Shown here in pieces: positions 2,055-61,401 of a stretch of 64,000 nt of DNA. The notes under the pieces are model-generated. The model was given only the letters and a program-made list of their open reading frames with translations, was not told where the DNA came from and did no database searches. How positions within the stretch are numbered: position 1 is the first letter of the stretch; each line of letters begins with the position of its first letter. Position numbers and translations under genes: made by a program. Location of the stretch: the NCBI RefSeq assembly GCF_024505045.1, contig NZ_JANIBM010000001.1:124001-188000 (forward strand). The letters run 5' to 3'. The DNA comes from Methylomonas aurea. GTDB lineage: Bacteria > Pseudomonadota > Gammaproteobacteria > Methylococcales > Methylomonadaceae.

Positions 2055-2064
2055 CCGCCAAGCA

Positions 2065-2083
2065 GGACCGGCGAGCCCGGTCC
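2065..2083 (+). terminator. GC-rich hairpin after the RND gene
   Basis: Perfect 7-bp inverted repeat GGACCGG / CCGGTCC with a 5-base loop, 10 bases after the RND stop. There is no T-run, so it may be a weak terminator or an mRNA 3' stabilising hairpin. Confidence 0.4.
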
Positions 2084-2237
2084 CGCGACTCCAAATGGTG
2101 CATAGTTGAGCGGTAGTTCGGCTAAACGTTCCAAATCGGTGCAGGACTTGGCGCAGGCCAGCAGTATTTTCGACTCGATAAGATTGGCGAGAAATTTGCT
2201 GGGCAGAAAGCCAAGGTCCACTTTCGACGAGTACGCC

Positions 2238-3410: not shown

Positions 3411-3430
3411 CCCGCACAGCAGGCTTTTCG

Positions 3431-4402: not shown

Positions 4403-4519
4403 AACGGCGTCCGGCCGGAACGGCTTGTGTAACGGCGGGGTAAACCGTTACAGTGCCGCCGTTTGCCGCCCGACCTGCCCCATGGCAACGGCGGCTACCG
4501 GACCCGTTCGCGAATTTCG

Positions 4520-5878: not shown

Positions 5879-5932
5879 CCGATTTTCCCTAGGGGGGTCG
5901 TTTGCCGCTGCCGTGTCCGGCCGGAAGTTGCG

Positions 5933-7000: not shown

Positions 7001-7148
7001 TGGCGGCCTGCACCGGTTTAACAATACTGGTCCGGAGTTTACGGCATTATCGAGTGGGCCGGTATCGCCGCTTGCGGCTTAATCAGCGCTTGCTTGGCCG
7101 GCGACGCATTCACTAGAATGCGGCAGCGACATTTTGGAGGCCCTTGCC

Positions 7149-7670
7149 GTGAACGAATCCCGTGAATTCATTCCGATCAATATCGCGGTATTGACCGTAT
7201 CCGACACCCGCAGCGAAGCCGACGATACTTCCGGCCGCGTGCTCGCCGATGGCCTGCTCGCGGCCGGGCATATGTTGGCCGACAAAAAAATCGTCCGCGA
7301 CGATATTTACCAGATCCGCGCTGCCGTCAGCCAATGGATCGCCGATCCGGGCGTAAATGCGGTAATCACCACCGGCGGCACCGGGGTAACCGGGCGCGAT
7401 GGCACCCCGGAAGCGGTGCTGCCGTTACTGGACAAGGTGCTGGACGGTTTCGGCGAAGTGTTCCGGATGCTGTCCTACCAGGACATCAAAAGTTCGACGA
7501 TGCAGTCGCGAGCGCTGGCCGGCGTTGCCAATGCCACCTATATATTCTGCGTGCCGGGTTCGTCCGGCGCCTGCCGCACGGCTTGGGAGGCGCTGATCAA
7601 GGATCAATTGGATTACCGTACCCGGCCTTGCAACCTGGTGCAACTGATGCCGCGTTTGCTGGAGAAATGA
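7149..7670 (+). CDS. moaB: molybdenum cofactor biosynthesis protein B
   Basis: 173-residue MogA/MoaB-fold protein acting on molybdopterin. The nucleotide/pterin-binding signature TGGTGVTGRDGTPEAV is present, followed by FGEVFRMLSYQDIKSSTMQSR and CVPGSSGAC, all in the family order. The GTG at 7149 is selected because a GGAGG at 7136-7140 lies eight bases ahead; longer starts would overlap that ribosome site. The stop overlaps the next gene in an ATGA arrangement, so translation is likely coupled. Other moa/mog genes are not in the window. Confidence 0.93.
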   Translation: MNESREFIPINIAVLTVSDTRSEADDTSGRVLADGLLAAGHMLADKKIVRDDIYQIRAAVSQWIADPGVNAVITTGGTGVTGRDGTPEAVLPLLDKVLDGFGEVFRMLSYQDIKSSTMQSRALAGVANATYIFCVPGSSGACRTAWEALIKDQLDYRTRPCNLVQLMPRLLEK

Positions 7671-8029
7671 TGCGCCGGACTTGTTTATTGTTGGCCGCCC
7701 TCGGCGGTTTTTGCGGAGTGGCGCTGGGCGCGTTCGGCGCCCACGGCTTGAAACATCTGCTAAGCGACTACCAATTGGACATCTATAAAACCGCGGTAAA
7801 TTACCAGATGTGGCACAGCTTGGCGCTGGGGCTGGTGGCGCTGTTGCCCGAGAGGGCGGCTCTGCGTTGGGCGGGATGGCTGCTGGCGCTGGGCATCCTG
7901 CTGTTTTCGGGCAGTCTATACTTGCTGGCGATATTCGATATCAAATGGCTGGGTATGGTCACGCCGCTGGGCGGCCTGGCGTTTCTGGCGGCCTGGGGCC
8001 TGATGGCCTACGCCGCGCTTCGAGAATAA
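7667..8029 (+). CDS. DUF423 small membrane protein (YgdD-like)
   Basis: 120 residues with about four hydrophobic helices. The glycine-rich N-terminus (LLLAALGGFCGVALGAFGAHGLK) and the middle YQMWHSLALGLVAL are characteristic of DUF423. The function of the family is not established. Start ATG at 7667 overlaps the moaB stop (ATGATG, giving MMRRT); the second ATG is also possible. Confidence 0.88.
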   Translation: MMRRTCLLLAALGGFCGVALGAFGAHGLKHLLSDYQLDIYKTAVNYQMWHSLALGLVALLPERAALRWAGWLLALGILLFSGSLYLLAIFDIKWLGMVTPLGGLAFLAAWGLMAYAALRE

Positions 8030-8042
8030 GCAGGAGTCACCG

Positions 8043-8588
8043 ATGGAGTCCAAACCGCCCGTTAGACCGTCCGCCCCGCCACCGGCTGCCAGCCGGCCCG
8101 GCGCCAGCCGCAACGTGCGCGACGACACGCACGACGTCAAAGTGCCTCAAGTGCCGGAAGATGCCATGCTCAAGGCGTTAAACGCGGTGATCCATTTCGC
8201 CGTCCGCATCCTGGCGGTACTGATGGTACTGGTGATTTTATGGGGCGTTGCCGACGTGGTGTATGTGATCTATCAACGCCTGGTCGCGGAACCGTTTATG
8301 ATGTTGACGGTCTCGGACATATTATTGATTTTCGGTTCGTTCATGGCCGTGCTGATCGCGATCGAGATTTTCATCAACATCACGTTGTACATTAAGCACG
8401 ACACGCTACCGATTAAAATGGTCATCGCCACGGCGTTAATGGCCGTAGCCCGAAAAGTGATCATGTTGGATTTCAAGGACCTGGACCCGGCTTACATCGT
8501 CGCGATCGCCGCGGTGATCGTGTCTTTGGGCCTGACTTATTGGCTGATTTCCTATAAACCGCAACCCGTCAAAACAGAAGAGCGATAA
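8043..8588 (+). CDS. PsiE-family (phosphate-starvation-inducible E) membrane protein
   Basis: 181 residues: a Pro/Arg-rich cytoplasmic N-terminus of about 45 residues, then four membrane segments (about 55-78, 92-112, 118-137, 148-168). The segment DILLIFGSFMAVLIAIEIF and the following INITLYIKHDTLPIKMVIAT match the PsiE superfamily. AGGAG at 8031-8035 precedes the ATG. It sits between the DUF423 gene (13 bases upstream) and pepN (3 bases downstream), so these genes probably form one transcript. Physiological role of PsiE is poorly defined; no Pho box was recognised here. Confidence 0.85.
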   Translation: MESKPPVRPSAPPPAASRPGASRNVRDDTHDVKVPQVPEDAMLKALNAVIHFAVRILAVLMVLVILWGVADVVYVIYQRLVAEPFMMLTVSDILLIFGSFMAVLIAIEIFINITLYIKHDTLPIKMVIATALMAVARKVIMLDFKDLDPAYIVAIAAVIVSLGLTYWLISYKPQPVKTEER

Positions 8589-47925: not shown

Positions 47926-48903
47926 ATGAAAATACTGGTAAACGGCGATAGCCGGGAAATCGGCGAAAACGCCACCGTTGCCGATCTGATTGCCGAGCTG
48001 GGCTTGGCCGGCAAACGCATCGCGGTCGAATTGAACAAGGAAATCCTGCCTTACACCCAGCATGCGACGCAGCGCCTGCAAAACGACGACAGGCTGGAGA
48101 TCGTCCAAGCCATCGGCGGCGGCCAGGACGATTTTTTCACGCTGGCCGGCAAACAATACCGCTCGCGCTTGCTGGTCGGCACCGGCAAATACAAAGACCT
48201 GGAAGAGACCCGGCTGGCGACCGAAGCCAGCGGCGCCGAGATCGTTACCGTAGCGATTCGCCGCACCAACATCGGCCAGAATCCCGGCGAGCCCAACTTG
48301 CTGGACGTGATTTCGCCGGACAAATACACCATCCTGCCCAATACCGCCGGCTGCTACACTGCCGACGACGCGGTCCGCACCTGCCGTTTGGCGCGGGAAC
48401 TGCTGGGCGGTCATAAGCTGGTCAAACTGGAAGTGTTGGCCGACCAATTGACTTTGTTTCCCGACGTCGCCGAAACCTACGTCGCCGCCGAATTGCTGGT
48501 CAAGGACGGTTTCGACGTGATGGTGTATACCAACGACGACCCGATCGCCGCCAAACGTCTGGAAGAAATCGGCTGCGTGGCGGTGATGCCTCTGGCCGCG
48601 CCGATCGGCTCCGGCTTGGGCATCCGCAACCCATACAACATTTTGACCATCGTCGAAAACGCCAAGGTGCCGATTCTGGTCGACGCCGGCGTCGGCACCG
48701 CCTCAGATGCGGCGATTGCGATGGAACTGGGCTGCGACGGCGTGTTGATGAATACCGCGATTGCCGCTGCGAAGAATCCGGTGCTGATGGCCTCGGCGAT
48801 GAAAAAAGGCATCGAAGCCGGCCGCGAAGCCTTCCTAGCCGGCCGCATGCCGCGCAAACGCTTTGCCTCGGCGTCGTCGCCGATTGATGGGTTGTTTTTG
48901 TAG
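47926..48903 (+). CDS. thiSG: ThiS-ThiG fusion: sulfur carrier and thiazole synthase
   Basis: 325 residues. Residues 1-66 are a ThiS beta-grasp carrier ([20 protein letters not shown] ... EIVQAIGGG). From about 70 onward it is full Thi[27 protein letters not shown] with the active-site Lys region nearby, [31 protein letters not shown], and a normal C-terminus. The carrier's reactive Gly-Gly, normally a free C-terminus, is buried in the junction (IGGGQDDFF). Such fusions are annotated in other methanotrophs as a bifunctional sulfur carrier/thiazole synthase. No TPP riboswitch was recognised upstream. Confidence 0.95.
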
Positions 48904-48912
48904 CGCCGACTG

Positions 48913-49137
48913 GTGTTCGAAGCCGCATCGATCATTCTGGATCTATTGATCTCGCTGGTCGAGTTCGTCGGGTTATGCCTGAAATTCATTTTAAGGAAAG
49001 CGGGCTGTTCCGAACAGAGTGCGTCGAAGCTGGTGAATGCTTTGGGGTGGTTTCTGCTGGCAGTTTTCCTGTTGAGCTTGGCCGCTTTACTGATTAAGAA
49101 ATTCGTGACGGCCAAGGCCGCCTTGGTTCGGGCGTGA
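48913..49137 (+). CDS. small hydrophobic protein, unknown
   Basis: 74 residues starting at a GTG nine bases after thiSG. Two membrane helices (about 5-27 and 44-62) separated by a basic/polar stretch FILRKAGCSEQSASK. No family recognised. Length and clean amphipathic pattern make it a plausible gene, but support is limited. Confidence 0.5.
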   Translation: MFEAASIILDLLISLVEFVGLCLKFILRKAGCSEQSASKLVNALGWFLLAVFLLSLAALLIKKFVTAKAALVRA

Positions 49138-49208
49138 TCCCTTGAAAGAGATAGGATATGCCTCAAAAATTCGGGCCGAACTTGTCGGTTTGGGCTGTGT
49201 CAACCCGA

Positions 49209-49238
49209 CCTACCGTTGAGCCGAGGAAGCACGGTAGG
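49209..49238 (+). promoter_or_regulatory. inverted repeat upstream of hicAB
   Basis: CCTACCGT / ACGGTAGG, 8-bp stem with a 14-base loop, 32 bases before the hicA start. It may be a regulatory hairpin or a dispersed palindrome. Confidence 0.4.
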
Positions 49239-49270
49239 ATGTAAGCCGACAATCGTTGCTAAGGTGTCCG

Positions 49271-49459
49271 ATGAAAGTCAGCGAAATTTTGAACCGATTG
49301 CAAGTCGACGGTTGGGTTCTGATAGCTACCCGTGGCAGCCATCGCCAGTTTAAGCATCCCAGTAAAATCGGCCGCGTTACCGTCGCGGGAAAACCAAGCG
49401 ATGACTTGGCGCCTGGAACGTTAAACAGTATTCTGAAGCAAGCAGGATTAAAGGAGTAA
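49271..49459 (+). CDS. hicA: HicA-type mRNA interferase toxin
   Basis: 62 residues with the dsRBD-like HicA fold: MKVSEILNRLQVDGWVLIATRGSHRQFKHP contains the conserved Gly-Ser-His with catalytic His24, followed by RVTVAGKPSDDLAPGTLNSILKQAG. The stop is four bases before hicB. Confidence 0.93.
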   Translation: MKVSEILNRLQVDGWVLIATRGSHRQFKHPSKIGRVTVAGKPSDDLAPGTLNSILKQAGLKE

Positions 49460-49463
49460 AACG

Positions 49464-49676
49464 ATGCGTTATGCCGTTGTCGTTGAAAAAGTCGAGCAGA
49501 ACTACTCGGCCTATGTCCCCGATTTACCGGGCTGTGTCGCTACCGGGCAGAGTGTGGAAGAAGTTGAACGCGAAATTCGCTTAGCGATCGCATTCCATAT
49601 CCAGGGCCTCAGGGAAGACGGTTTATCGATTCCGTTGCCGACCAGTATTGTCGAGTATCTCGAAGTTGCAGCCTGA
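49464..49676 (+). CDS. hicB: HicB-type antitoxin
   Basis: 70 residues: YSAYVPDLPGCVATGQSVEEVEREIRLAIAFHIQGLREDG is the partial RNase H-like HicB core. No C-terminal DNA-binding domain is present, so promoter control by HicB alone is doubtful. Partner of the preceding toxin. Confidence 0.93.
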   Translation: MRYAVVVEKVEQNYSAYVPDLPGCVATGQSVEEVEREIRLAIAFHIQGLREDGLSIPLPTSIVEYLEVAA

Positions 49677-49690
49677 TCAAGTCCCGCTCC

Positions 49691-49891
49691 ATGTCCGATA
49701 AACAAGCCGACGTAATAGACGACGTAATCTGCTACTGCAGCGGCACCACCGCTCAACAAATCAAGCAACTGCTCGACGACGGCATTACCGATCCGGAACG
49801 CATCTCCCGCATCACCGGCGCCGCGTCGGGGTGCGGCGGCTGCGAGTTCGAGTTTCAGCAATTGATCGCCGCGTATAGCCAAGGGGGCTGA
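49691..49891 (+). CDS. Bfd-like [2Fe-2S] protein
   Basis: 66 residues. Cluster cysteines Cys14-x-Cys16 and Cys48-x2-Cys51 (VICYCSGTT ... ASGCGGCEF) match the bacterioferritin-associated ferredoxin fold, including the helix IKQLLDDGITDPERIS between them. Family roles include iron release from bacterioferritin or an iron-sulfur module of larger reductases; no bacterioferritin is adjacent. Confidence 0.85.
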   Translation: MSDKQADVIDDVICYCSGTTAQQIKQLLDDGITDPERISRITGAASGCGGCEFEFQQLIAAYSQGG

Positions 49892-49896
49892 TTCGG

Positions 49897-50217
49897 ATGG
49901 CCTGCTGCGACGATCCCACCGAACCGAAGAAACTTGATCGTCGGGAACTGATTCGCTTGCAGGAGCAATACGGCGAATTGGTGCGCGACCTGCTTACCGA
50001 AGACCCGGAACGGGTGATTCTGAAATTATTGAACGGCACCAGTCCTTATCTGACCGAATTGGCTGCGTTGAATGCGCATCATGCCTCGGCTAGGCTCAAG
50101 GCGATCGAGTTGCTTGACCATAACAGTGCCGCCGTGCTGCGCCAGATCGTCGATAAACAAGCCGGCAGCGAATTTGCCGCTGCCGCCCAAGCCCGCTTGG
50201 CTCAGTTACAACTCTAA
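49897..50217 (+). CDS. small HEAT-like helical protein, unknown
   Basis: 106 residues starting six bases after the Bfd-like gene. Opens with a Cys pair (MACCDDPTEPKK), then helical repeats (LVRDLLTEDPERVILKLLNG, ARLKAIELLDHNSAAVLRQIVD, EFAAAAQARLAQL) reminiscent of one or two HEAT units. Probably cotranscribed with the [2Fe-2S] protein, suggesting a shared metal-related role; not recognised as a named family. Confidence 0.6.
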   Translation: MACCDDPTEPKKLDRRELIRLQEQYGELVRDLLTEDPERVILKLLNGTSPYLTELAALNAHHASARLKAIELLDHNSAAVLRQIVDKQAGSEFAAAAQARLAQLQL

Positions 50218-50324
50218 ACCACCATTCTTTCCTCCCCGCGCCGCTCTGACGGGGCCCGGCACGATAGCCGGTAAATTCCTTGCTACAATGCCGCGCAATT
50301 GAATCCGGTACAGGTGGACGACTC

Positions 50325-50984
50325 ATGCGATTGTTATTGGTAGAAGACGATGCCATTTTAGGCGACGGCCTTAAGGCCGGCCTGACCTTGGAAGGCTACG
50401 CGGTCGACTGGCTGACCGACGGCGCCCAGGCCGACGAGGCATTGAAGCTGAACCATTACGACCTGATCGTGTTGGATCTAAATCTGCCGCGAATGGACGG
50501 CATGACGGTTCTGAAAAACCTGCGCCGGCGCAAGGACAGCACGCCGGTATTGGTGTTGACCGCCCGCGACGGCATTGCCGAACGGGTGGCGCTGTTGGAT
50601 AGCGGTGCCGACGATTTCGTCGCCAAACCCTTCGACTTGGCCGAGATTTGCGCCCGCTTGCGCGCGCTGGCCCGCCGCCACGAAGGCCATAGCCTGCCGT
50701 TGCTGGAGCACAAGGGCGTCACCGTCGATCCGGCCGCGCACCAGGTGTTCTACCACGGCCAGCCGGTCGATCTGGCGCAAAAAGAGTTCGAAGTGCTCAG
50801 TTATCTGATCAGCCACGTCGGCCAGGTGATTTCCCGCGCCCGACTGGAAGAAGCGATTTACGCCTGGGGTTCGGAGGTGGAAAGCAACGCGGTCGAGGTA
50901 CATATCCACCATTTGCGGAAAAAACTCGATACCAATTTGATCCGTACCATCCGCGGCGTCGGTTACATCATCGACGACAACTGA
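50325..50984 (+). CDS. OmpR-family response regulator (QseB/PmrA-like)
   Basis: 219 residues: receiver domain with acidic pocket EDD at 7-9, phospho-acceptor Asp51 (IVLDLNLP) and KPFD Lys; then a winged-helix DNA-binding domain ending in RTIRGVGYIIDD. ATG at 50325 begins MRLLLVEDDAILGDG. The stop overlaps the histidine kinase start (TGATG). Confidence 0.94.
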   Translation: MRLLLVEDDAILGDGLKAGLTLEGYAVDWLTDGAQADEALKLNHYDLIVLDLNLPRMDGMTVLKNLRRRKDSTPVLVLTARDGIAERVALLDSGADDFVAKPFDLAEICARLRALARRHEGHSLPLLEHKGVTVDPAAHQVFYHGQPVDLAQKEFEVLSYLISHVGQVISRARLEEAIYAWGSEVESNAVEVHIHHLRKKLDTNLIRTIRGVGYIIDDN

Positions 50985-52387
50985 TGGCCAAACGCCTGCG
51001 GTTGGCGCCGCGTTCGTTGAAAAAGCAGCTCTTGCTGTCGCTGCTGTCCTCTCTGCTGCTGGTCTGGGGCGCCACCGCGTATATCAATTACCGGCAAACC
51101 CGCGACGAAATCGCTGAACTGTTCAATGCCGAACTGGCGCAATCGGCGCGGGTGGTGCATGCCTTCGTCGAAAATATGCTGCGCCAGCGGGCGTTGACCA
51201 AACTGTGGGAGCGCGAGAAAACCCCGGAACTGTTCGACACGCCGATTCTCGGCCATAAGTACGAACGCAAGATCGCCTTCCAGTTACGTTCGGTTAAGGA
51301 CGGCGTGATCCTGCGCTCGGAGAGCGCGCCGGAATTTGCCTTGTCGCTGACCCGTAACGGCTACAGCGAAACGCTGATCAACGAACAGCTCTGGCACGTC
51401 TTCAGCTTGAGCAGCGAAAACGGCGAGTACGTAATCCACGTCGGCCAGCGCGAGGATATCCGCCGGCAATTGGTGGAGAGCATCGCCGGCCAGCAAATCG
51501 TCGGGGTCTTGATTGCTCTGCCGATCTTGGGCTTGGTGATCTGGTGGATCGTCAGCCGCACGCTGTCGCCGGTCAACCGCTTGCAGCAAGAGCTGGCCAG
51601 CCGCGAGGCCGGTTACCTACAGCCTTTGTCGGAACAGGGCTTGCCGGACGAGATGCGGCCGGTGGTGCAGCAAATCAACAGCCTGTTCGCGATGCTGGAA
51701 CAAGCCTTCGCCAACGAACGCAATTTTACTTCCGACGCCTCGCACGAACTGCGTACGCCGCTGGCCGGCTTGCAAACCCAATTGCAGGTGGCGCAAAAAG
51801 CCGCCGATCCCGCCATGCGCAGCCAGGCCATCGCCAAGGCGCAGCAGGCGGTGGTCAGAATGACGCATCTGGTACAGCAACTGTTGACCTTATCCCGCGT
51901 GCAACACCAGGCCGGCATCGCGATGCAGCCAGTCGATATCTATCAGGTTTTGGCCGATACCCTGGCCGATCTGGACCATCTGGCTCACGCCAAGCATATC
52001 GAGCTTGAACTGCACGGCCAGGCCGGCCTGGCGGTGGAGGCCAATCCGCAATTGCTGCAAATTCTGCTGCGCAATCTATTGGATAACGCCATCAAATACA
52101 CTCCCGCAGGCGGTGCGGTGCGGGCCGGTTGCGGCCGCGAGGAGGGATGGGTTTTGATTACGGTAGACGACGATGGGCCGGGGGTGGCCGACGGCGAATA
52201 CGAACGCCTGAGCCAGCGCTTTTACCGTTGTGTGGAAACGGCGCATACCGCCGAGGGCAGCGGCTTGGGCTTGTCGATCGCGCAGCGCATCGTCGCGTTG
52301 CACGGCGCCGAGATCGGCTTTGCCAAATCGGCGATGGGCGGTTTACAAGCCCGGCTGCGCTTGCTTGCTAAGGCCAGTCCCGGTTAG
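50984..52387 (+). CDS. sensor histidine kinase (QseC-like)
   Basis: 467 residues. Two membrane segments (about 15-34 and 167-190) bracket a periplasmic domain of some 130 residues. Next come a HAMP-type linker, the phospho-acceptor box SDASHELRTPLAGLQ, N-box LLDNAIKYTP, G1 VDDDGPGVADGE and G2 GSGLGLSIAQRI. Pairs with the preceding regulator. A lipoprotein-CopC operon begins 108 bases downstream, so copper or envelope stress is a possible stimulus (inference). Confidence 0.94.
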   Translation: MAKRLRLAPRSLKKQLLLSLLSSLLLVWGATAYINYRQTRDEIAELFNAELAQSARVVHAFVENMLRQRALTKLWEREKTPELFDTPILGHKYERKIAFQLRSVKDGVILRSESAPEFALSLTRNGYSETLINEQLWHVFSLSSENGEYVIHVGQREDIRRQLVESIAGQQIVGVLIALPILGLVIWWIVSRTLSPVNRLQQELASREAGYLQPLSEQGLPDEMRPVVQQINSLFAMLEQAFANERNFTSDASHELRTPLAGLQTQLQVAQKAADPAMRSQAIAKAQQAVVRMTHLVQQLLTLSRVQHQAGIAMQPVDIYQVLADTLADLDHLAHAKHIELELHGQAGLAVEANPQLLQILLRNLLDNAIKYTPAGGAVRAGCGREEGWVLITVDDDGPGVADGEYERLSQRFYRCVETAHTAEGSGLGLSIAQRIVALHGAEIGFAKSAMGGLQARLRLLAKASPG

Positions 52388-52495
52388 CGTGATCTGGACC
52401 GCTTGGCTATGGTTGGAAAAGCAGCGCTTTGCCGATTCTGCTTTCGGTCGCGATATGGTGTAATCGGCGCTTTTCGATCAACCCATTACCAGGCC

Positions 52496-53716
52496 ATGCC
52501 GAATTCCAGGACCGCTCATTGTTGGATTGCGTTATTTACCGTTTCGGTATTGTCCGGTTGCGGCGATATCCCCGGCCTTGGCCAACCGGCCGCCAAGCCG
52601 CTGGCTGCGACGCTAACGGCGCCGGTCGATCTGTCGGCGTTGCATTTGCAAAATGTCGCCAGTTTCGATGTATATCCAGACCGGAACCGGCTGCATGCCG
52701 TTTTCCTGGCCACTGCCACCGATACTAAAACGCCTTACGCCGCCTACCTGCATTCCGACGACGGCGGCTGGCACTGGTCGGCGCCGCAAGCTATCGCGCC
52801 AAGCGCCGACCGGCCGATCGAATCGAAAGCCGGCAACGATATCCAGATCGCGGCCAGCGGCGAAAATCTGCTGGCGGTTTGGCAAGCCACCGGCGAATTG
52901 CCCGGCATGGGGCCGTTGGCCGCCGCCTATTCCACCGACGGCGGGCAAACCTGGGTGGCCGGCGCCAAGCCGACCGGCAGCGATGCCGACCAGTCCCACC
53001 CCGATTTGCTGGCGGACACCGACAGCCGCTTTCATGCCGTCTGGCTGGACGACAGAGACGAGAACGGTTACCAAGGCTTGCGTTATGCCCGCAGCAGCGA
53101 CGCCGGCCAACATTGGGAGCTGGCGCAAACCATAGACGACACCAGTTGTTCCTGTTGCTGGAACCGCCTGGCGACCGGTGCGGACGGCGGGATCAATGTC
53201 TTGTATCGGGATATGGTGCCGCGCGACATGGCACTGGCACAGTCGGCGGACTTTGGTGCAACGTGGCGCCGGGCCGGCAGCGTCGGCGCCTTCGGCTGGC
53301 AGTTCGACGGTTGCCCGCACAACGGCGGCGGTTTGGCGCTGGCCGGCGACCGATCGTTGCACAGCGTGGTCTGGACCGGCGCGGAAAACCGGGTTGGGTT
53401 GTATCATATGCAATCCAACGATAACGGCGCCAGTTGGACGCCGCCGCAACGTCTGGGCGAAGGCCCGGCGTTCCATGCCGATATCGCCGCCGGCTCCGGC
53501 CGATTGGTGGCAGTGTGGGATGCATTGGGGCCGGAGGGTTCGCGGGTCTATTTCAGCGAATCGGCCGATAGCGGCCGCAGCTGGTTACCGGCTCGGCAAA
53601 TATCGCCCGCCGCGGCATCCTTTCCGCGCATCGTGGCGACGCCGAAGGGGTTTTTGGCGATGTGGCTCGAGCAATCGCCGGCCGGCAAGGTATGGTCGGC
53701 AGCCGTTTTACAATGA
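52496..53716 (+). CDS. sialidase-fold (BNR) lipoprotein with Cys cluster
   Basis: 406 residues. Lipoprotein signal with lipobox LSGC, lipidated Cys22. The body has about six Asp-box repeats of the S-x-D-x-G-x-x-W type (SDDGGWHW, STDGGQTW, SSDAGQHW, SADFGATW, SNDNGASW, SADSGRSW), indicating a six-bladed beta propeller. The Arg triad and other catalytic residues of true sialidases were not identified. Unusual: a CxCC group at 218-221 (TSCSCCWNR) and Cys273-Pro-His275 (FDGCPHNGG), which could bind metal or form disulfides. It heads a tight operon with copC 23 bases downstream. Probably not a glycosidase. Confidence 0.8.
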   Translation: MPNSRTAHCWIALFTVSVLSGCGDIPGLGQPAAKPLAATLTAPVDLSALHLQNVASFDVYPDRNRLHAVFLATATDTKTPYAAYLHSDDGGWHWSAPQAIAPSADRPIESKAGNDIQIAASGENLLAVWQATGELPGMGPLAAAYSTDGGQTWVAGAKPTGSDADQSHPDLLADTDSRFHAVWLDDRDENGYQGLRYARSSDAGQHWELAQTIDDTSCSCCWNRLATGADGGINVLYRDMVPRDMALAQSADFGATWRRAGSVGAFGWQFDGCPHNGGGLALAGDRSLHSVVWTGAENRVGLYHMQSNDNGASWTPPQRLGEGPAFHADIAAGSGRLVAVWDALGPEGSRVYFSESADSGRSWLPARQISPAAASFPRIVATPKGFLAMWLEQSPAGKVWSAAVLQ

Positions 53717-53739
53717 GTTTACGAATTTAAGAGGTGGTC

Positions 53740-54117
53740 ATGCCCAAGTTAGACATAACAACAATAATAAGACCCGGCTTGCTGGCGCTCGCGCTATTGA
53801 GTCCGTTACCGGTTTTTGCCCATGCGATTCTGGTGAAGTCGCAACCGGCCAAGGACGAGACGCTGACCGAATCGCCGAAGCAAATCGATTTGTGGTTTAA
53901 CGACGCGGTGCGCAGCGAGTACAAGGCGCTGGCCGTGATCGACAGCACCGGCAAACGGGTCGACAACCACGACGTCGAGCAAAGCCTGACTAATGGCGCC
54001 AATATCCACGCTACCGTGCCGACGCTGGCGCCGGGCGTCTATACCGTGCGTTACCGGGTGGTTTCCGAAGATACCCATATCGTTACCGGCAAGTTCGAAT
54101 TCACCATCAAACCTTAA
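53740..54117 (+). CDS. copC: CopC-domain periplasmic copper-binding protein
   Basis: 125 residues. Signal peptide ends at PVFA, giving a mature N-terminal His28 (HAILVKSQPAKDE). Together with Asp111 and His113 (SEDTHIVTG) this forms the Cu(II) histidine-brace site known in CopC. Beta-barrel core QIDLWFNDAVRSEYKAL is typical. Methionine-rich Cu(I) sites are absent. GAGG lies ahead of the ATG. Other genes in the operon encode a lipoprotein, a membrane lipoprotein and a HupE-like protein; CopD is not seen. Confidence 0.93.
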   Translation: MPKLDITTIIRPGLLALALLSPLPVFAHAILVKSQPAKDETLTESPKQIDLWFNDAVRSEYKALAVIDSTGKRVDNHDVEQSLTNGANIHATVPTLAPGVYTVRYRVVSEDTHIVTGKFEFTIKP

Positions 54118-54129
54118 TGGGCTTCAGTC

Positions 54130-54783
54130 ATGACAATTCAAAGATTTTCCGCGTTTTGGGCGCTAGCCCTGCTGGGCGCCCTGTTACTGAGCGGTTGCGA
54201 CAAACTCGATTTCGGCGCCAAACAATCCAACGCCCTGGGCAATCGGCCCGACCTCGATTGCATTATCGCCAACGACTTTTACGCGGTGCATTTCAGCGCC
54301 TATCTGCAGCCAGACAAGAACGACAAAACCGTCGACGCCAAAACCGCCTTCGTGCCGTTTTGCCAGCAAATCCCGCGCGCCGGCAAGATGTTTTTCACCG
54401 CCGATTTGATCGATCGCGACATCCGCAGTACGCCAATCGGGATCCGCTTGGTGGAAGTCGAAAAAACCGGCCAAAAAGCGCCGGATGACATCCGCGAAAT
54501 TCGCACCGTAACCGAAATTCCGGCCAAACTCTATCCGAAAGGCGCCGTCGAAGCCCAAGCCGATGTCGATAAAATCGGCGATTACGTCTTGTATCTGCTG
54601 ATCGGTGATGCGATTGAGGAAGACGATAAATTCCGCGTCGCCTTGCAAGTCGGCGTCGCACCGGGCGGGTCGCAATTCCCGTGGCTGGTAATCGGCGGCG
54701 TCGCTGCAGCGATTGCGGTGGTGGCAGGCTTTCTGGTCTATTTGATCCGCCGCAAACGCAAAGCCGCCGCAGAGCAGGAATAA
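54130..54783 (+). CDS. membrane-anchored lipoprotein, unknown
   Basis: 217 residues, 12 bases after copC. Lipobox LLSGC near residue 23, a beta-rich extracytoplasmic domain of about 150 residues containing three further Cys, and a second membrane segment near the C-terminus (about 180-205) followed by a basic tail RRKRKAAAEQE. Having both a lipid anchor and a membrane helix is unusual; alternatively the N-terminus is a plain signal peptide. No named family recognised. Its place in the operon suggests work with CopC and the HupE-like protein. Confidence 0.65.
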   Translation: MTIQRFSAFWALALLGALLLSGCDKLDFGAKQSNALGNRPDLDCIIANDFYAVHFSAYLQPDKNDKTVDAKTAFVPFCQQIPRAGKMFFTADLIDRDIRSTPIGIRLVEVEKTGQKAPDDIREIRTVTEIPAKLYPKGAVEAQADVDKIGDYVLYLLIGDAIEEDDKFRVALQVGVAPGGSQFPWLVIGGVAAAIAVVAGFLVYLIRRKRKAAAEQE

Positions 54784-54788
54784 AGCCG

Positions 54789-55901
54789 ATGGCCAGAATC
54801 TGGGACATGCCGGCGTCGGCCGGCTGCAGGTATGTTTTGGCGGTGGTTTTGCTTTCGGTTTCGAACTGGGCCGCGGCGCACGCGCCGGGTTTGAGTTCGA
54901 TAGAGCTGACGATGCAGGCCGACCGCGTCGTCGCCAAAATGACCTTTGCTTTGCAGGACATCGAAGCCTTTTCGCCGATGGATACCGACCTGGATGCCGA
55001 GGTCAGCGCCGCCGAACGCGAAGCGGCCAAACCGGCCGTTGCCCAACTCCTGGCCGAGCAGACCCGGGTCAACATCGACGGTGCCGACGTTCTGCCGGTC
55101 GTGCCGGGTAGCGTGAATTACGACGACCAGAACAATGCCCATGTCGAATTCAGTTTCCAGCCGGCGCCGAAACGACAATTGCTGATGCAGTCCAAGTTTC
55201 TGGCCTGGTTGCAGGACGGCCACCAGCAGCACTTGACCGTGCGCGATGCCGGCGGTAAACAGATCGCCGAGAAAATGCTGCGTCGCGACGACGACCAATT
55301 GCAGCTCGATCTCACGGCAGCCACTGGCGCCGAGGCCGGCCATGCCGGTTCGACCTTTCTGGATTTTCTGAAGCTGGGCGTCGAGCATATCCTGACCGGT
55401 TACGACCACTTGCTGTTTCTGTTCGCGCTGCTGGCGGTCACCCACAGCTTCTGGCCGGCGATCAAAATCGTCACCTTTTTCACGATTGCCCATTCCATCA
55501 CGCTGGCCTGCGCCGGCTTGAATCTGGTGGATTTGCCGAGCAGTTTCGTCGAACCGTTCATTGCCGCGACGATTGTCTACGTCGCTATCGAAAACCTGAT
55601 CCGCGGCGACCACCCCAAAGGCCGGCAATGGCTGACCTTCGGTTTCGGCTTGATCCACGGCTTCGGCTTTGCCAGCGTGTTGCGCGAGCTGGATATCAGT
55701 TCCGGCGATAGCGGTATCCTGATGCCGTTGCTGTCGTTCAATCTCGGTATCGAGACCGGCCAAATCGCAGTCGCATCCGTCGTCTTGCCGCTGATTTGGT
55801 GGCTGAACCACAAGCCCTATGCCGACAAGTTTTTGAAAGGCTGTTCGGCGCTGGTTTGTCTGGTCGGAGCATACTGGTTCGTCGAGCGTACTCTGCTCTA
55901 A
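54789..55901 (+). CDS. HupE/UreJ-family membrane protein
   Basis: 370 residues. Signal peptide (about 1-30), a large extracytoplasmic N-terminal domain (HAPGLSSIELTMQADRVVAK onward, to about 185), then about six membrane helices. The helices contain GVEHILTGYDHLLFLFALLAV, HSITLACAG and GLIHGFGFASVLREL, the His-rich signature of the HupE/UreJ_2 group. Relatives are implicated in nickel or cobalt transport; here CopC linkage raises copper as an option. Starts five bases after the previous gene. Confidence 0.87.
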   Translation: MARIWDMPASAGCRYVLAVVLLSVSNWAAAHAPGLSSIELTMQADRVVAKMTFALQDIEAFSPMDTDLDAEVSAAEREAAKPAVAQLLAEQTRVNIDGADVLPVVPGSVNYDDQNNAHVEFSFQPAPKRQLLMQSKFLAWLQDGHQQHLTVRDAGGKQIAEKMLRRDDDQLQLDLTAATGAEAGHAGSTFLDFLKLGVEHILTGYDHLLFLFALLAVTHSFWPAIKIVTFFTIAHSITLACAGLNLVDLPSSFVEPFIAATIVYVAIENLIRGDHPKGRQWLTFGFGLIHGFGFASVLRELDISSGDSGILMPLLSFNLGIETGQIAVASVVLPLIWWLNHKPYADKFLKGCSALVCLVGAYWFVERTLL

Positions 55902-56014
55902 AGGGCCACGGTTCGGCAGCGATGCGGCAATTGGCCGCAGGCCGCGCGTCTGGTTAATTGATTGCATTTATCGGACAATTTTTGCAATTCTCTTAAATTT
56001 CGCCTCGCAGTTGC

Positions 56015-56791
56015 GTGCTATTTCCCAAAGCTGGCCAACATGGATTTGTAAGTGCTCGACATCGGCCGGAGCGGTTCGCCATCGGTCCGGTGGGTGCGTC
56101 AGGCATTGCACATCGAAAGGAACGCTGGTCCAACCTTTCGGTTTTGACTACGATTTCGGCGGCCGTTGCCGCGCTGCATTTGTTCGGGGTCCGCTGTTTG
56201 TTTTGCCCCGATATCACGCAGGCCGCCGCACAACCTTTGCCCATCCAAGTTTCCACCATCACAATCCGGACCACGCAGACCGTGCCGGCCCGGCCCACGC
56301 CGCCGGAAGCGGCAAAACCGGCGCAGAAAAAACCGCAACCCAAGCCCAAACTGAAGCGCGTTATCCCCCAGGCGCCGGCATCCGATTTCTCGGTATTGGA
56401 CCAGGTTCTCGATCAAGCCCCGAAACCAGAAATTCGGACCAACCGGCCCGAGATTGCCCAGGATGTGGTGGCTGGCGGCGAAAAACCGGCGTTTACCGAG
56501 GCCTACCTGAGTGCGGAGTACCAGCACAACCCGAAGCCGGACTATCCGAGCATTGCCCGTAGCCGGGGCTGGCAGGGTAAGGTCTTGCTGCGGGTGCAAG
56601 TGGACGCCGAAGGCCGCGCCGAAACCGTGGCGCTCGAGCAAAGCTGCGGCCACGACATGCTCGACGAGTCGGCGCTGGAGGCCGTCAAACAATGGCGCTT
56701 CGTGCCGGCCAAGCGCGACGATGTCGCCGTCGCCAGCTCGGTATTGGTGCCGATCATATTTTCGTTACAAGACGAGCAGCCGATTTCCTAG
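56015..56791 (+). CDS. TonB-type energy transducer
   Basis: About 258 residues as drawn. One membrane helix (about 42-60), a Pro/Lys linker (KPAQKKPQPKPKLKR), then the C-terminal TonB domain with YPSIARSRGWQGKVLLRVQV and ESALEAVKQWRFVPA. It would couple ExbBD to receptors such as BtuB; exbB and exbD are not in the window. The start is uncertain: the first in-frame codon here is a GTG at 56015, and a later GTG at 56090 leaves a shorter cytoplasmic end. Confidence 0.87.
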   Translation: MLFPKAGQHGFVSARHRPERFAIGPVGASGIAHRKERWSNLSVLTTISAAVAALHLFGVRCLFCPDITQAAAQPLPIQVSTITIRTTQTVPARPTPPEAAKPAQKKPQPKPKLKRVIPQAPASDFSVLDQVLDQAPKPEIRTNRPEIAQDVVAGGEKPAFTEAYLSAEYQHNPKPDYPSIARSRGWQGKVLLRVQVDAEGRAETVALEQSCGHDMLDESALEAVKQWRFVPAKRDDVAVASSVLVPIIFSLQDEQPIS

Positions 56792-56997
56792 GCACCGTTT
56801 CATTCCACGCCAAATCCCCCTTGTTGCCAGTCGGACCGTTTTCGCGGCCGCGGCGCAAGCGCGTGTGACAAAAAAAATATAATTCATATTTATGTTAAGA
56901 TCGCCACTCTGCCGGATGGGCGGGAGACAGCGCGGATCGCCGATTCGCGCCCGTTATTTGATTTCGGATTGGCTGGCGATGGCCGGTTGGGGGCGTT

Positions 56998-57435
56998 GTG
57001 AATATAGTGAAATTGGGATTCGGACTGGTGTTATTGGCGTTGCTAACGGCCGGCTGCGGTGCGCCGGACCAAATCAACGCCAGGAATTTGCAATCCGCCC
57101 ATAAATCGATGAACCGCATCAAACAGCACTTGCCGTCGGACAGCCAGTTACCGTTCGAAGTGGCCTACTGGTTGGTGCGGGAGCAGATCAAGAACGAAGC
57201 CGACTTTCTGAAAACGATAGACGGCAAGACCCCGTCGCAGTTGATCGAACTGGGGCAGGCCGCGTTCGGCGCGCGCAAATCCGCCGGCGACCCGAAATAT
57301 GCGAGTTATCAAAATTGGGAGCAACTGCTTACCGAATCCGGCAAACAGCGCGCCGAGCTTGGCGATACCGAACAGGCCGATCCGCGCGACAAGAAGGGCT
57401 ATCCGCGAGTCGACTACAAAATGCACGCGATGTAA
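56998..57435 (+). CDS. small lipoprotein upstream of a two-component pair
   Basis: 145 residues. GTG start, lipobox LTAGC, then a charged helical body (AHKSMNRIKQHLPSDSQ, LVREQIKNEADFLKTIDG) and a polar end. Unknown function. Lies 13 bases before the response regulator, so probably part of its operon and perhaps a stimulus-related envelope protein. Confidence 0.7.
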   Translation: MNIVKLGFGLVLLALLTAGCGAPDQINARNLQSAHKSMNRIKQHLPSDSQLPFEVAYWLVREQIKNEADFLKTIDGKTPSQLIELGQAAFGARKSAGDPKYASYQNWEQLLTESGKQRAELGDTEQADPRDKKGYPRVDYKMHAM

Positions 57436-57448
57436 TCGGTCCGCTGAT

Positions 57449-58114
57449 ATGCGCGTGTTATTGATCGAGGACGACCCCGCCTTCTCCGTGCCACTGGCCG
57501 CCGATTTGCGCGGCGCCGGCTACATCGTCGATACCGCCGCCGACGGCGAGCAAGGCGAGTTCCTCGGCGCCGTCGAACAATACGATGCTGCGATCCTGGA
57601 CCTTGGTTTGCCCAAACTCGCCGGCCTGGACGTGCTGAAATGCTGGCGCGACGCCGGTAACGCCATGCCGGTGATTGTGTTGACGGCCCGCGATGCTTGG
57701 CACGAAAAAGTCGACGGCTTTAAAACCGGCGCCGACGATTACGTTTGCAAGCCGTTCCATACTCAAGAATTGCTGGCTCGCTTGCAGGCGGTTTTGAAGC
57801 GGGTACACCATTTGAACCAGACTAAATTAAACGTATTCGGAGTGGAACTCGACGAAGACGAACAAACGGCGACAGTCGCCGGCGGCGAGGCCCAGCCGCT
57901 GACCGCAATCGAATTCAGACTGTTGCGCTACTTCATGCTCAATGCCGGTAAGGTATTGAGCAAGGCGCAACTGGGCGAACACGTCTACAGCGAGTCGGCC
58001 GAGCCCGACAGCAACGTGCTGGAAGTCTACGTCAAGCGTTTGCGCAAGATCGTCGGCAACGATTTGATCCATACCCGGCGCGGCCAGGGCTATCTGTTCG
58101 GCGTTAAACCATGA
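57449..58114 (+). CDS. OmpR-family response regulator (PhoP-like)
   Basis: 221 residues: acidic pocket EDD, phospho-acceptor Asp51 (AILDLGLP), Lys in VCKPFH, and a winged-helix domain ending in HTRRGQGYLFG. The stop overlaps the kinase start. Confidence 0.93.
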   Translation: MRVLLIEDDPAFSVPLAADLRGAGYIVDTAADGEQGEFLGAVEQYDAAILDLGLPKLAGLDVLKCWRDAGNAMPVIVLTARDAWHEKVDGFKTGADDYVCKPFHTQELLARLQAVLKRVHHLNQTKLNVFGVELDEDEQTATVAGGEAQPLTAIEFRLLRYFMLNAGKVLSKAQLGEHVYSESAEPDSNVLEVYVKRLRKIVGNDLIHTRRGQGYLFGVKP

Positions 58115-59439
58115 TGTCGTTGCGCCAGCGCCTGGGCCGCGGTCTGATGGCGGTGCTGTGCGCGATTTTCATCCTGCATTGGCTGGCCGCCGACTGGATC
58201 ATCCGCAGCGCCGCCGAAAAACAGATGGCCAACCGCCTGGCCGACGACGGTTACTCGTTGCTGGAGACCCTGGCCTATCGCGACGACGACCAAGTCACCT
58301 TCGACAGCTTCCATATCAGTTCGGTGTACAACCGTCGCCTGTCCGGCCATTACTACCTGGTTAAGGTCGACGCCCAGGCTTATCCTTCGCCGTCCTTGCT
58401 GGATTTTCCGCTGGCCGTCACAGCCGTCGGGCCCGAGCAATCGATGCTGTACCATGCGGCCGGCCCCAACCACACCCCGTTGCTGGTGCTGAGCCTGGGC
58501 GCGGTGAAATTCGGGCACAGAATCAGCATCAGCATTGCCGAAGACCTGTCGGCGGTGGATCACGACATCACGGCTATCCGGGTGGCTTACTTTGGCCTGA
58601 CCTTGCTGATTTTGCTCAGCGCGATCGGCTTGTTGCGCTGGGACATCCGCCGCGCGCTGCGACCCTTGTACGCGGTGGGCGGCGAACTGGAGCAGGTCGC
58701 CAACGGCGGCCGGCAAAAAATCGACGCGGAGGTGCCGGACGAAGTCAAACCGCTGGTCATGGAAATCAACCACCTGCTGGCGGTCGTGGTACGGCGTCTG
58801 CAACAGTCGCGCACGGCGATGGGCAATCTGGCGCACGCGCTGAAATCGCCGATGGCGTTGCTGCTGCGGATAACTGAAGATCCGCTGTTCGATAGCCGCC
58901 CGGACTTGAGGCTGCAAGTCAGCGCTCAGGCCGAAACCATCCAGCGCTATATCGAGCGCGAACTGAAACGGGCTCGGATTGCAGGCGACCAACAGGCCGC
59001 GCCGGCCTGCAACCCGCATCGGGAAATAATCGCCCTGAAAAAAACCCTGCGGGCGATTTACGCCGACAAGCCGCTGGACATTCAAGTGACCGCGCCCAAT
59101 CAAGCGCTGCATTTCGACCGGGAAGACTTGATGGAAATCCTTGGCAACCTGTTGGATAACGCCTGCAAATGGGCAAGACAGAGGATCGACGTGGAGCTGG
59201 AGCTGGCCGAGCAGTTGCTGATCCGCGTCGCCGACGACGGCCCCGGTTGTGCAGTCCAAGGCCTGGAGCATTTGACCCGACGCGGCCGGCGTCTGGACGA
59301 ATCGGTGCAGGGCCACGGCTTGGGACTCGGCATCGTGGCGGACATCGTTACCACTTACCATGGCAGGATGGAATTCGGTCGCAGTAAAGCGTTGGGCGGT
59401 TTCTTGGCGACGGTGAGTTTGCCGTTGCATTGCCATTGA
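58111..59439 (+). CDS. sensor histidine kinase (PhoQ-like)
   Basis: 442 residues. Two membrane helices (about 12-30 and 160-180) enclosing a periplasmic domain, a HAMP linker, and the PhoQ-type acceptor box NLAHALKSPMALLLR. N-box LLDNACKWARQ, G1 ADDGPGCAV and G2 GHGLGLGIVADI follow. The acidic membrane-facing patch of true PhoQ was not identified, so the signal is open. Confidence 0.92.
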   Translation: MMSLRQRLGRGLMAVLCAIFILHWLAADWIIRSAAEKQMANRLADDGYSLLETLAYRDDDQVTFDSFHISSVYNRRLSGHYYLVKVDAQAYPSPSLLDFPLAVTAVGPEQSMLYHAAGPNHTPLLVLSLGAVKFGHRISISIAEDLSAVDHDITAIRVAYFGLTLLILLSAIGLLRWDIRRALRPLYAVGGELEQVANGGRQKIDAEVPDEVKPLVMEINHLLAVVVRRLQQSRTAMGNLAHALKSPMALLLRITEDPLFDSRPDLRLQVSAQAETIQRYIERELKRARIAGDQQAAPACNPHREIIALKKTLRAIYADKPLDIQVTAPNQALHFDREDLMEILGNLLDNACKWARQRIDVELELAEQLLIRVADDGPGCAVQGLEHLTRRGRRLDESVQGHGLGLGIVADIVTTYHGRMEFGRSKALGGFLATVSLPLHCH

Positions 59440-59737
59440 CCCGGCCCTTAAATACCGTTCTCCGCCCACAAGGTACTGAGCCATTCGAAGTGCTTCCCAC
59501 ATCGGGCTTCGACAGGCTTGTATGGTAAGACTCGAGAGAAGCGGGGAGACTTTGGGTGGCAGGATGGAGGGACGTCGACAGGTATCGGCCAAGACAGACC
59601 TCGCTGAGAATTCATCCCATCGCGTCTTCCGGAGACAATGAAAAATCTAACGGTTAAACCGCCGATTGCGCACAAGCTAACTCGGCAGACGCGCCGCCCC
59701 GACGCTCTCAACCCCAACGCTCTCATTCTCAATAGTC

Positions 59738-60125
59738 AGGGGTTTATCACAAGCGAATTGTTGATTGGCATTGATGTTTCGAAGGACGAGTTAGCAATCG
59801 ATTCGGAACAGGGATTATTTACACTTGCCAATACACTGGCGGCCATTGATGCCTGGCTGAAGCATGTCGATCAACAATTGGATGACCTATTGGAATTGCA
59901 GCTCCCCCCTGAAAACTCAATCCCGACGTCTTGAAAGTATTCCGGGTATAGGCCGGCAGACCTCAATACAGCTTGCGGTCCTGTTTGACCGAATCCCGCT
60001 ATAGCTGCGGTGGCAGCCGACCGCCAATGCCGATGCTACGGGCAACAGCGGCAAATGCGTACCGATACGCACGCTGATGGTTAAAATTGCGGGCAATCCA
60101 GCTAAATCAAGGCGTTACTTTTGCT
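59738..60125 (+). pseudogene. IS110-family transposase remnant
   Basis: Broken transposase. The 5' part encodes LLIGIDVSKDELAIDSEQG, the start of the DEDD domain of IS110 enzymes, then ALAAIDAWLKH. After a C6 run at 59904-59909 the matching sequence continues in another frame: LKTQSRRLESIPGIGRQTS, the start of the C-terminal Transposase_20 domain. An in-frame stop follows, then a degraded NSGKCVPIRTLMVKIAGNP. About half the middle of the protein is missing. The 200 bases before it (59440-59640) include the dispersed-type sequence GGGCTTCGACAGGCT and no gene. Confidence 0.75.
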
Positions 60126-60186
60126 AGCGACACTATTTCAGGCTTATTATCACTTACAAACCACCTGGGATTTTAGATAGCGCTAC

Positions 60187-61401
60187 ATGACCGATTCCGC
60201 AATCACCGAACAAGACATATTGGCCGGGCTGGATGCCGGCGAATTCGTTTACTACTACCAACCTAAAGTCTCGCTGATAACCGGCAAAGTGATCGGCGCC
60301 GAAGCGCTGATCCGCTGGCAGCGGCAGGACGGCCAAACCATTCTGCCCAACGCTTTCATCCCGCTCGCCGAGCAGACCGGCCTGATCAAACAGATCACTT
60401 ACCGGATGTTCGGCAAACTGGCGCGGGATTTACTGATATTCAGCGACATCGACAGCCGCTTGGTGACTTCGGTCAACGCTTCCGCCCAGGATTTCGCCGA
60501 CAGCCGGTTTTGCACCATGGTGCTGGAAACCTTGGAGCAATTGTGTATTCCGACCAAGAACCTGCAAATCGAAATCACCGAAACCACGGTATTGAACGCA
60601 GACCCATCGGTCAGAAAAAACATACAAACCCTGTGCGATGCCGGCGTCGGCCTGGCGATGGACGATTACGGCACCGGTTATTCGACGCTGGAAACCTTGA
60701 GCCAGTGGCCGTTCACCACGATCAAACTGGACCGCAGTATCGTCAGCCGGATGCTGGACAATCCCAAGAACCAGACCATCGCCGAATCGTCGATCCGCAT
60801 GGCGCACGAACTCGATATCGGCATCGTCGCCGAAGGTGTCGAATCCGATCTGCAATACCAAATGTTGCTGGAATCCGGCTGCACCAAAGTGCAAGGCTAC
60901 TGGTTGAGCCGGCCGCTGCCGTTGAGCGATTTCCTTTACTTCGTGCAGCAGGACATCCGCTGGTCCGGCCTGCCGATCGGGCTGATTCACATGGCCATCG
61001 TCGACCACATCCAGTGGCGGAAGAAACTGGTCAGCGACGTGGTTCGCATCGCCACCAACCCAGGCCAGACCGGCGAGCGCAACCATTACCAGCTGCCGTT
61101 GGACTACAGGAGTTGCCGACTGGGCAAATGGTATTACGGCGCCGGCCGCCAATTCGTCGGATGTGCCGATTTCGATGCGATAGAACTGCCGCACCAAAAA
61201 TTCCACAGCCTGGGCAGCGAACTAATAAACACGGTCAACGCCGGCGGCAATATCGCCGACCTGACGCCGATTCTGACCGAGTTTTCCGACTTGTCGGCAG
61301 TCATTCTGGATTGCCTGCAGCGCCTGGAGCATAAAGGCTTGATGGACATGCACCTGGCTCACCGCAGTTGGGAAGGGCACCACCTGTTTCCGACGGCGTA
61401 G
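60187..61401 (+). CDS. c-di-GMP phosphodiesterase (EAL) with C-terminal CZB zinc-binding domain
   Basis: 404 residues, no membrane segment. EAL domain at about 8-255 with intact motifs: E39 in AEALIRW, NASAQ, E131ITET, D159-D160 in DDYGTG, K180 in IKLDRS and EGVES, so hydrolysis of c-di-GMP is expected. The C-terminal part has the signature of the chemoreceptor zinc-binding domain: His274 in DHIQWRKKL, Cys310 in SCRLGKWYYG, and His336/His340 in PHQKFH. C-H and H-H spacings (26 and 4) equal those of known CZB domains within one residue. Zinc would act as an input controlling c-di-GMP breakdown. Confidence 0.87.
   Translation: MTDSAITEQDILAGLDAGEFVYYYQPKVSLITGKVIGAEALIRWQRQDGQTILPNAFIPLAEQTGLIKQITYRMFGKLARDLLIFSDIDSRLVTSVNASAQDFADSRFCTMVLETLEQLCIPTKNLQIEITETTVLNADPSVRKNIQTLCDAGVGLAMDDYGTGYSTLETLSQWPFTTIKLDRSIVSRMLDNPKNQTIAESSIRMAHELDIGIVAEGVESDLQYQMLLESGCTKVQGYWLSRPLPLSDFLYFVQQDIRWSGLPIGLIHMAIVDHIQWRKKLVSDVVRIATNPGQTGERNHYQLPLDYRSCRLGKWYYGAGRQFVGCADFDAIELPHQKFHSLGSELINTVNAGGNIADLTPILTEFSDLSAVILDCLQRLEHKGLMDMHLAHRSWEGHHLFPTA

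Follow-up and report, generated by a model that had tools for sequence, protein, structure and literature searches.

An apparent operon of four genes lies at 52496-55901 on the forward strand of a stretch of Methylomonas aurea DNA. The window, by which we mean the whole 64,000-nucleotide stretch analysed (NZ_JANIBM010000001.1, positions 124,001 to 188,000), supplies all coordinates given below without a locus label. We consider it probable that the products of this operon make up the periplasmic section of a route that acquires copper and supplies it to the particulate methane monooxygenase (pMMO). The four co-directional open reading frames (ORFs) are separated by 23, 12 and 5 bases, so the ORF coordinates agree with the four-gene operon described in an earlier interpretation of this DNA (the sequence-only reading). 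The genes and their motifs are:

52496..53716, + strand: gene 1, a beta-propeller of the seven-bladed type with a lipobox (LSGC, Cys22); Pfam BNR_2, E 6.1e-17; six Asp-boxes
53147..53158, + strand: CxCC motif of gene 1 (Cys218, Cys220, Cys221), in the loop preceding strand A of blade 4; invariant in relatives
53312..53320, + strand: CPH motif of gene 1 (Cys273, Pro274, His275), in the loop preceding strand A of blade 5; near-invariant in relatives
53740..54117, + strand: gene 2, a single-domain CopC with the histidine brace His28 / Asp111 / His113; Pfam CopC, E 1.7e-25
54130..54783, + strand: gene 3, a PmoD homologue by profile and fold, with a lipobox (LSGCD, Asp at +2), a periplasmic domain and a C-terminal transmembrane helix
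54259..54363, + strand: Cx9HxnC motif of gene 3 (Cys44, His54, Cys78); invariant in 16/16 sequences of alignment A1
54789..55901, + strand: gene 4, a HupE/UreJ-2 permease with a periplasmic N-terminal domain; Pfam HupE_UreJ_2 (PF13795), E 2.9e-47

The blade count of gene 1 was taken from the strand pattern, and the protein is 94% identical to its counterpart in M. koyamae SM2. Its AlphaFold model (pLDDT 83.5) gave the best fold match with CylK (7roo; Z 31.9, rmsd 3.1, 336 aligned); this common propeller fold says nothing about the function of the modelled protein. Cys218, Cys220, Cys221, Cys273 and His275 were kept in 67/67 orthologue rows (a redundant set). The sequence-only reading, which had placed the CxCC and CPH groups at these residues and staked its proposal on conservation of the cysteines in orthologues, therefore held on both counts. 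Among 28 other family members, many of them ~30% identical, CxCC and CP were each present in 28/28 and the histidine in 22/28. Judged from the secondary-structure string of the model, the two motifs would sit in matching loops of neighbouring blades, on the same side of the propeller. We use the name Cys-cluster propeller family for proteins that carry CxCC on one blade and CP on the next. Gene 1 carries both and is better read as a member of this widespread, copper-linked family marked by an invariant cysteine cluster.

Gene 2 has the Pfam domain and the His1, Asp and His ligands expected of CopC, with His28 as the expected mature N-terminus. His28 was present in 65/67 sequences, Asp111 in 67/67 and His113 in 65/67, so the complete histidine brace noted earlier is also a conserved one. 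The closest solved structure was 5icu, and the score lay under the NCBIfam CopC equivalog cut-off (72.2 vs 95 bits). The remark that CopD is missing stands for the operon, with the nuance that a separate CopC-CopD pair occurs in the same genome (L090, G000:C63:1-9000, 486-2483), beside squalene/hopene-synthesis-like genes.

Gene 3 had been called a lipoprotein, and the lipobox is indeed present; the family can now be named as PmoD, a known copper protein. Treated as a lipoprotein of unknown family, it gave no Pfam match and nothing useful from NCBIfam, and was resolved by a profile search of the PDB sequence set, where the sole match of the gene 3 family profile was PmoD (6cpd, E 3.1e-13). The gene 3 model matched 6cpd_B with Z 11.7 (rmsd 2.8, 119 aligned; next-best Z 8.1), Foldseek matched it to 6cpd with E 9.9e-8, and a helix spans residues 183-216 of the model. 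By sequence homology and predicted fold, both shared with the solved PmoD soluble domain, gene 3 is a PmoD. Its motif, Cx9HxnC, has no Met ligand and is not the CuA-forming ligand set Cx7MxHxnC. In the main text of Fisher et al. (2018, PMC6189053), the Cx9HxnC class makes up 22.2% of PmoDs and is described as often near copC, copper-binding and free of a CuA site.

The residue at lipobox position +2 is Gly in gene 1 and Asp in gene 3. Under the E. coli +2 lipoprotein sorting rule, Gly fits the outer membrane and Asp the inner membrane. This rule was not relied on to sort the two proteins, since the simple lipobox pattern was found in 28/73 propellers and 25/55 PmoDs.

The PF13795 score of gene 4 (160.7 bits vs a cut-off of 24.5) bears out its earlier description as HupE-like. 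His31, His200, His207 and His235 were present in 43/43 sequences; His31 is the predicted first mature residue, with the signal-peptide cleavage site placed by eye. Gene 4 thus has the N-terminal His after the signal peptide and before PF13795 that characterises Ang-1 (Anglerase), with which it shares a signal peptide, a mature N-terminal His, a periplasmic domain and a HupE_UreJ_2 membrane part (PMC12537917). According to the parts of that paper available, HupE/UreJ-2 proteins of such architecture bind copper via the mature N-terminal His, and the characterised Ang-1 domain binds copper (73.6 nM) more tightly than nickel (220 nM). One sequence search with the gene 4 protein (P0004) returned no match to any solved Ang domain, RbAng-1a included, so that only the architecture is in common. 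The gene 4 periplasmic domain also contains an EF-hand-like loop, DxDxDxxVxxxE, at 54981-55016 (residues 65-76), which is nearly invariant in alignment A4.

The four-gene set is more than a chance grouping, as gene-neighbourhood comparison showed. The propeller, CopC and PmoD genes were adjacent in 30/30 Methylomonas loci with short flanks, and the cassette of these three genes was found in 18/18 Methylomonas-type loci and 34/48 loci of other Methylococcales. The 30-locus and 18-locus sets share species, and the adjacency counts accept CopC in L092, L099 and L154, whose mechanical ORF starts far upstream. Co-occurrence was scored across 251 sampled Methylococcales genomes, with E at most 1e-50 taken as the threshold both for an orthologue-level propeller (a clear gap separated these from paralogues, 7e-56 vs 9e-41) and for a strong PmoD. 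The propeller was present in 106 genomes and a strong PmoD in 101; 90 genomes had both, 16 the propeller alone, 11 PmoD alone and 134 neither, an association that is inflated by relatedness.

The 18 Methylomonas-type loci and the 34 loci of other Methylococcales together give 52 cassettes. HupE accompanied 29 of them, and an ABC/ZnuA-type set and/or an unknown protein of 520-580 residues accompanied 14. No cassette had both, and 9/52 had neither within the stretch examined. This alternation suggests that the HupE and ABC/ZnuA sets fill a single role, the inner-membrane step. Loci of Methylococcaceae had the order propeller-CopC-PmoD-unknown-ABC-ZnuA, in which the 520-580-residue protein between PmoD and the ABC genes (L168:9621-11357, L095:9040-10626 and equivalents) has no Pfam or NCBIfam match.

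A pmoCAB or pmo-like operon was present within the stretch around the cassette at 8/66 loci (821 kb), compared with about 0.5 expected on the assumption of at most 2 pmoA-type genes per 3.5 Mb (1 or 2 were found per Methylococcales genome searched). Six of these loci have a pmoA-like gene scoring as true pmoA and two a more distant pxmA-like gene; three of the six come from one genus and the two pxmA-like ones from another, which reduces the count to about five independent events. In Methylomonas sp. WSC-6 (L228) the order is response regulator (RR)-histidine kinase (HK)-propeller-CopC-PmoD-HupE remnant-pmoCAB, and the remnant between PmoD and pmoCAB is 107 residues long (L075:7602-7925). At L100, in a genome without a propeller orthologue, CopC-PmoD lies just 3' of pmoCAB; here PmoA was identified by Pfam, and the names PmoC and PmoB rest on position and on resemblance to L228, where PmoC and PmoA had been scanned. 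In Methylomagnum ishizawai RS11D-Pr (L238, NZ_AP019784.1) a 274-kb plasmid carries the cassette, and genes annotated as amoABC lie a few kb from it.

Other neighbours of the propeller were also recorded. In many Methylococcales genera (L141, L143, L144, L146, L147, L150, L155 and others) a gene for an FGE-sulfatase (formylglycine-generating-enzyme-like) protein is divergent to the propeller gene; FGE is a copper enzyme. Two reading frames appear to encode a HupE-like membrane region joined to a TonB-dependent receptor (L140:2861-5677, L149:8289-11048), and at L170 and L171 the propeller orthologue stands beside a large RND-pump gene, in place of a receptor or CopC.

At 21 of 24 loci outside Methylococcales, the propeller gene adjoined one for a TonB-dependent receptor or a thioredoxin-like (Trx) protein; a receptor was present at 20 of the 24, Trx at 17 and the copper chaperone PCuAC at 5. 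Compared with TonB copper receptor families, the neighbouring receptors scored under every NCBIfam equivalog cut-off listed, which assigns no ligand to them. Locus L223 reads receptor-propeller-Trx-PCuAC-DUF1775-CopC/CopD, the last three confirmed by Pfam, and has no PmoD. In this it is similar to pcuABCDE, a Bradyrhizobium operon for copper starvation, in which PcuB is a TonB-dependent receptor and PcuD a DUF1775 protein (PMC8424229, PMC12617631, as far as their accessible text goes): both have receptor, PCuAC, DUF1775 and CopC/CopD genes, and L223 has the propeller and Trx as well. The CrtA/BfrG importer provides copper-repressed, TonB-dependent copper uptake, with a DUF2946 gene first, as in L225; its partner is a PepSY_TM protein, and the text searched does not mention a propeller (PMC12914433). 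Copper is the thread common to the propeller contexts, and its direction can differ between them.

Four further features flank the operon of the window:

50325..50984, + strand: response regulator, OmpR type (QseB/PmrA-like); Pfam Response_reg and Trans_reg_C
50984..52387, + strand: sensor histidine kinase (2CSK_N, HAMP, HisKA, HATPase); Pfam
52454..52465, + strand: promoter-like element TATGGT[GC]TAATC, occurring once in the window, 31 bases 5' of gene 1
56015..56791, + strand: TonB-family protein (start codon uncertain); TonB_C, E 3.5e-22; 113 bases 3' of gene 4

The RR-HK pair (QseBC/PmrAB-like) ends 108 bases 5' of gene 1, confirming the two-component system that had been noticed directly upstream. 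The pair was immediately 5' of the operon in 13/18 Methylomonas-type loci, the HK alone in 2 further loci where the contig ends, and RR-HK was not seen in the remaining 3/18, with 0.4-3 kb of upstream DNA examined. This system is likely the regulator of the operon. The TATGGT[GC]TAATC element, or a one-base variant of it, was seen by eye 5' of gene 1 in L064, L065, L066, L067, L068, L070, L072, L075, L079 and L091; only a weaker match was present in L077, and none was found in L074 in the 35 bases examined between HK and gene 1. The element appears conserved and promoter-like, and may serve to control transcription. The downstream TonB-family gene is a possible, non-conserved member of the operon: of the loci compared, L064 and L091, which are the nearest relatives, were alone in having it at this position.

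The same genome has a second metal locus (L088, G000:C1:4000-22000, 1130-8524), where NikR, HupE (PF04955), a TonB-dependent receptor and a HupE-2 paralogue run in one direction, divergent from a second CopC-PmoD-like pair. L105 and L094 have the same combination of receptor, CopC and PmoD.

Published expression data exist for related clusters. M. capsulatus Bath has three clusters with a strong response when copper is limiting, and the third, MCA2168-2179 (hypotheticals, a ZnuABC-like transporter and copC), is induced (PMC4831470). Its pmoD next to copC, MCA2170b, is up without copper (PMC6688271), and in M. trichosporium copper down-regulates the copC-adjacent pmoD (PMC6189053). The MCA cluster shares copC, a copC-adjacent pmoD and hypotheticals with the window operon; it has an ABC/ZnuA-type transporter where the window operon has HupE, and the propeller is not named in the accessible text on the MCA genes. 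The PmoD/AmoD-CopC(-CopD-PCuAC) modules of methane and ammonia oxidisers (PMC6189053) are similar in having copC beside pmoD, two invariant PmoD cysteines and a link to pMMO. The window operon differs from the modules described there in the lack of CopD or PCuAC, in the propeller in front and HupE behind, and in the Cx9HxnC class of its PmoD.

We infer the metal and its direction from these contexts. Copper acquisition is well supported by the presence of CopC and PmoD, by receptors and PCuAC near relatives of the propeller, by the pmoCAB neighbours and by the induction in M. capsulatus; of the two directions that the sequence-only reading had left open, export is not favoured. In the route we propose, copper would enter across the outer membrane via a TonB-dependent receptor encoded elsewhere in the genome. 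It would then be bound by the lipid-anchored propeller, probably in the Cu(I) form, where CxCC and CPH of two neighbouring blades would make up a thiolate site; alternatively, the propeller may strip copper from an imported chelate. Copper would pass to CopC, as Cu(II) at the histidine brace, and to membrane-anchored PmoD, which may supply or assist pMMO. The HupE-type permease would bind metal at its N-terminal histidine and carry a share across the inner membrane, and the upstream two-component system would regulate the operon.

Several observations weigh against this acquisition route, and alternative explanations draw on some of them. No TonB-dependent receptor gene was present among the window ORFs of 48000-61000, so the operon is not a TonB-dependent copper importer operon in the sense of one containing its receptor gene, and no thioredoxin-like gene was found within it; across Methylomonas-type loci, only 2/18 had receptor or thioredoxin genes near the cassette. 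The propeller occurs without a strong PmoD in the 16 Methylococcales genomes counted above, HupE is degraded or absent in two Methylomonas (L075, L079), and MCA2168-2179 matches the Methylococcaceae form of the cassette by gene content, not by sequence. Two orthologue-level propellers outside Methylococcales lie in genomes without pmoA, and thus the propeller is not tied to methanotrophy. The nature of the metal is touched by a further set of findings. HupE/UreJ proteins are known as nickel permeases (PMC12537917, from the part available), M. lenta (L072) has a NikR gene and a receptor after its cassette, and the HupE-2 paralogue of the window genome lies in the run with NikR, HupE (PF04955) and a receptor at L088. 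A mixed operon could account for these, in which the propeller, CopC and PmoD handle copper and HupE, merely on the same transcript, imports nickel for hydrogenase or urease. We regard this as unlikely: the ABC/ZnuA-type set occupies the HupE slot in Methylococcaceae, where the matching cluster is copper-regulated, the Ang-1 domain prefers copper, and NikR stood beside the cassette in 1 of the loci compared.

A role in copper tolerance, where the operon would sequester or detoxify periplasmic copper without importing it, seems less likely still. CopC takes its name classically from resistance, and CxCC/CP propellers, annotated as sialidases, do occur in copper-resistance clusters on Sulfitobacter and Pseudosulfitobacter plasmids (L239, L240), among CusA/CusB, P-type ATPase and copper oxidase genes; at L170 and L171 the propeller adjoins an RND pump gene. 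The window operon, however, lacks CopA, CopB, efflux ATPase and RND genes, the usual partners of the propeller elsewhere are TonB-dependent receptors, and the published copC-adjacent pmoD genes, in the text accessible to us, go up under copper limitation and not under excess. The least probable explanation is that gene 1 is an ordinary carbohydrate-active propeller, a sialidase or lectin whose cysteines form structural disulfides with no link to metal. BNR_2 and the Asp-boxes fit such a protein, as does the fold, which is close to that of PLL lectins (Z up to 29.2) and more distantly resembles that of sialidases (Z about 22); databases label relatives of gene 1 'sialidase family protein'. As a candidate sialidase, gene 1 gave profile matches that were real but weak and partial. 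The [FYL]RIP motif is a sialidase marker. It was absent from 19/19 aligned orthologues, so gene 1 is not recognisable as a GH33 sialidase by this motif, and the sequence-only reading was right to see no recognisable sialidase site. CxCC and CP(H) are invariant while most other positions of gene 1 vary, and metal-related neighbours accompany the propeller in unrelated lineages. The sialidase label of the relatives is probably a misannotation.

Returning to copper acquisition, we put forward a broader idea with more doubt than confidence. The family of lipid-anchored propellers now labelled 'sialidase' may be the general periplasmic acceptor of TonB-imported copper. In it, CxCC and CP(H) on two adjacent blades would make up a Cu(I)-thiolate site, which a dedicated thioredoxin-like partner would keep reduced. 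In most proteobacteria the copper might go from there to PCuAC/CopC and serve respiratory oxidases; in gammaproteobacterial methanotrophs it might go to CopC/PmoD and serve methane monooxygenase, which would give these methanotrophs a copper route independent of methanobactin.

The suggestion that the pathway is not yet described needs to be narrowed. Earlier papers already describe the pairing of copC with pmoD and its response to copper (PMC6189053, PMC6688271 and PMC4831470), as well as the import of copper through TonB-dependent receptors. Full-text searches of open-access literature did not turn up the Cys-cluster propeller in a copper role, its linkage to receptors and a thioredoxin partner, or the HupE/ABC alternation; these covered listings and abstracts with passages of the papers cited, and not supplements such as that holding the 20 PmoD neighbourhood groups of Fisher et al. 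(PMC6189053), and are not proof of absence.

pMMO needs copper, and little is known of how methanotrophs such as Methylomonas bring it to the enzyme from outside the cell; the authors of the M. capsulatus study state that nothing is known of copper movement inward from MopE (PMC4831470). The cassette provides a short gene list for this route in genetically tractable organisms. The database name 'sialidase' misdirects researchers who meet the propeller family. If the broader idea is right, the propeller family would also be, in many other bacteria, the acceptor so far missing between a TonB-dependent copper receptor and the chaperones of the periplasm.

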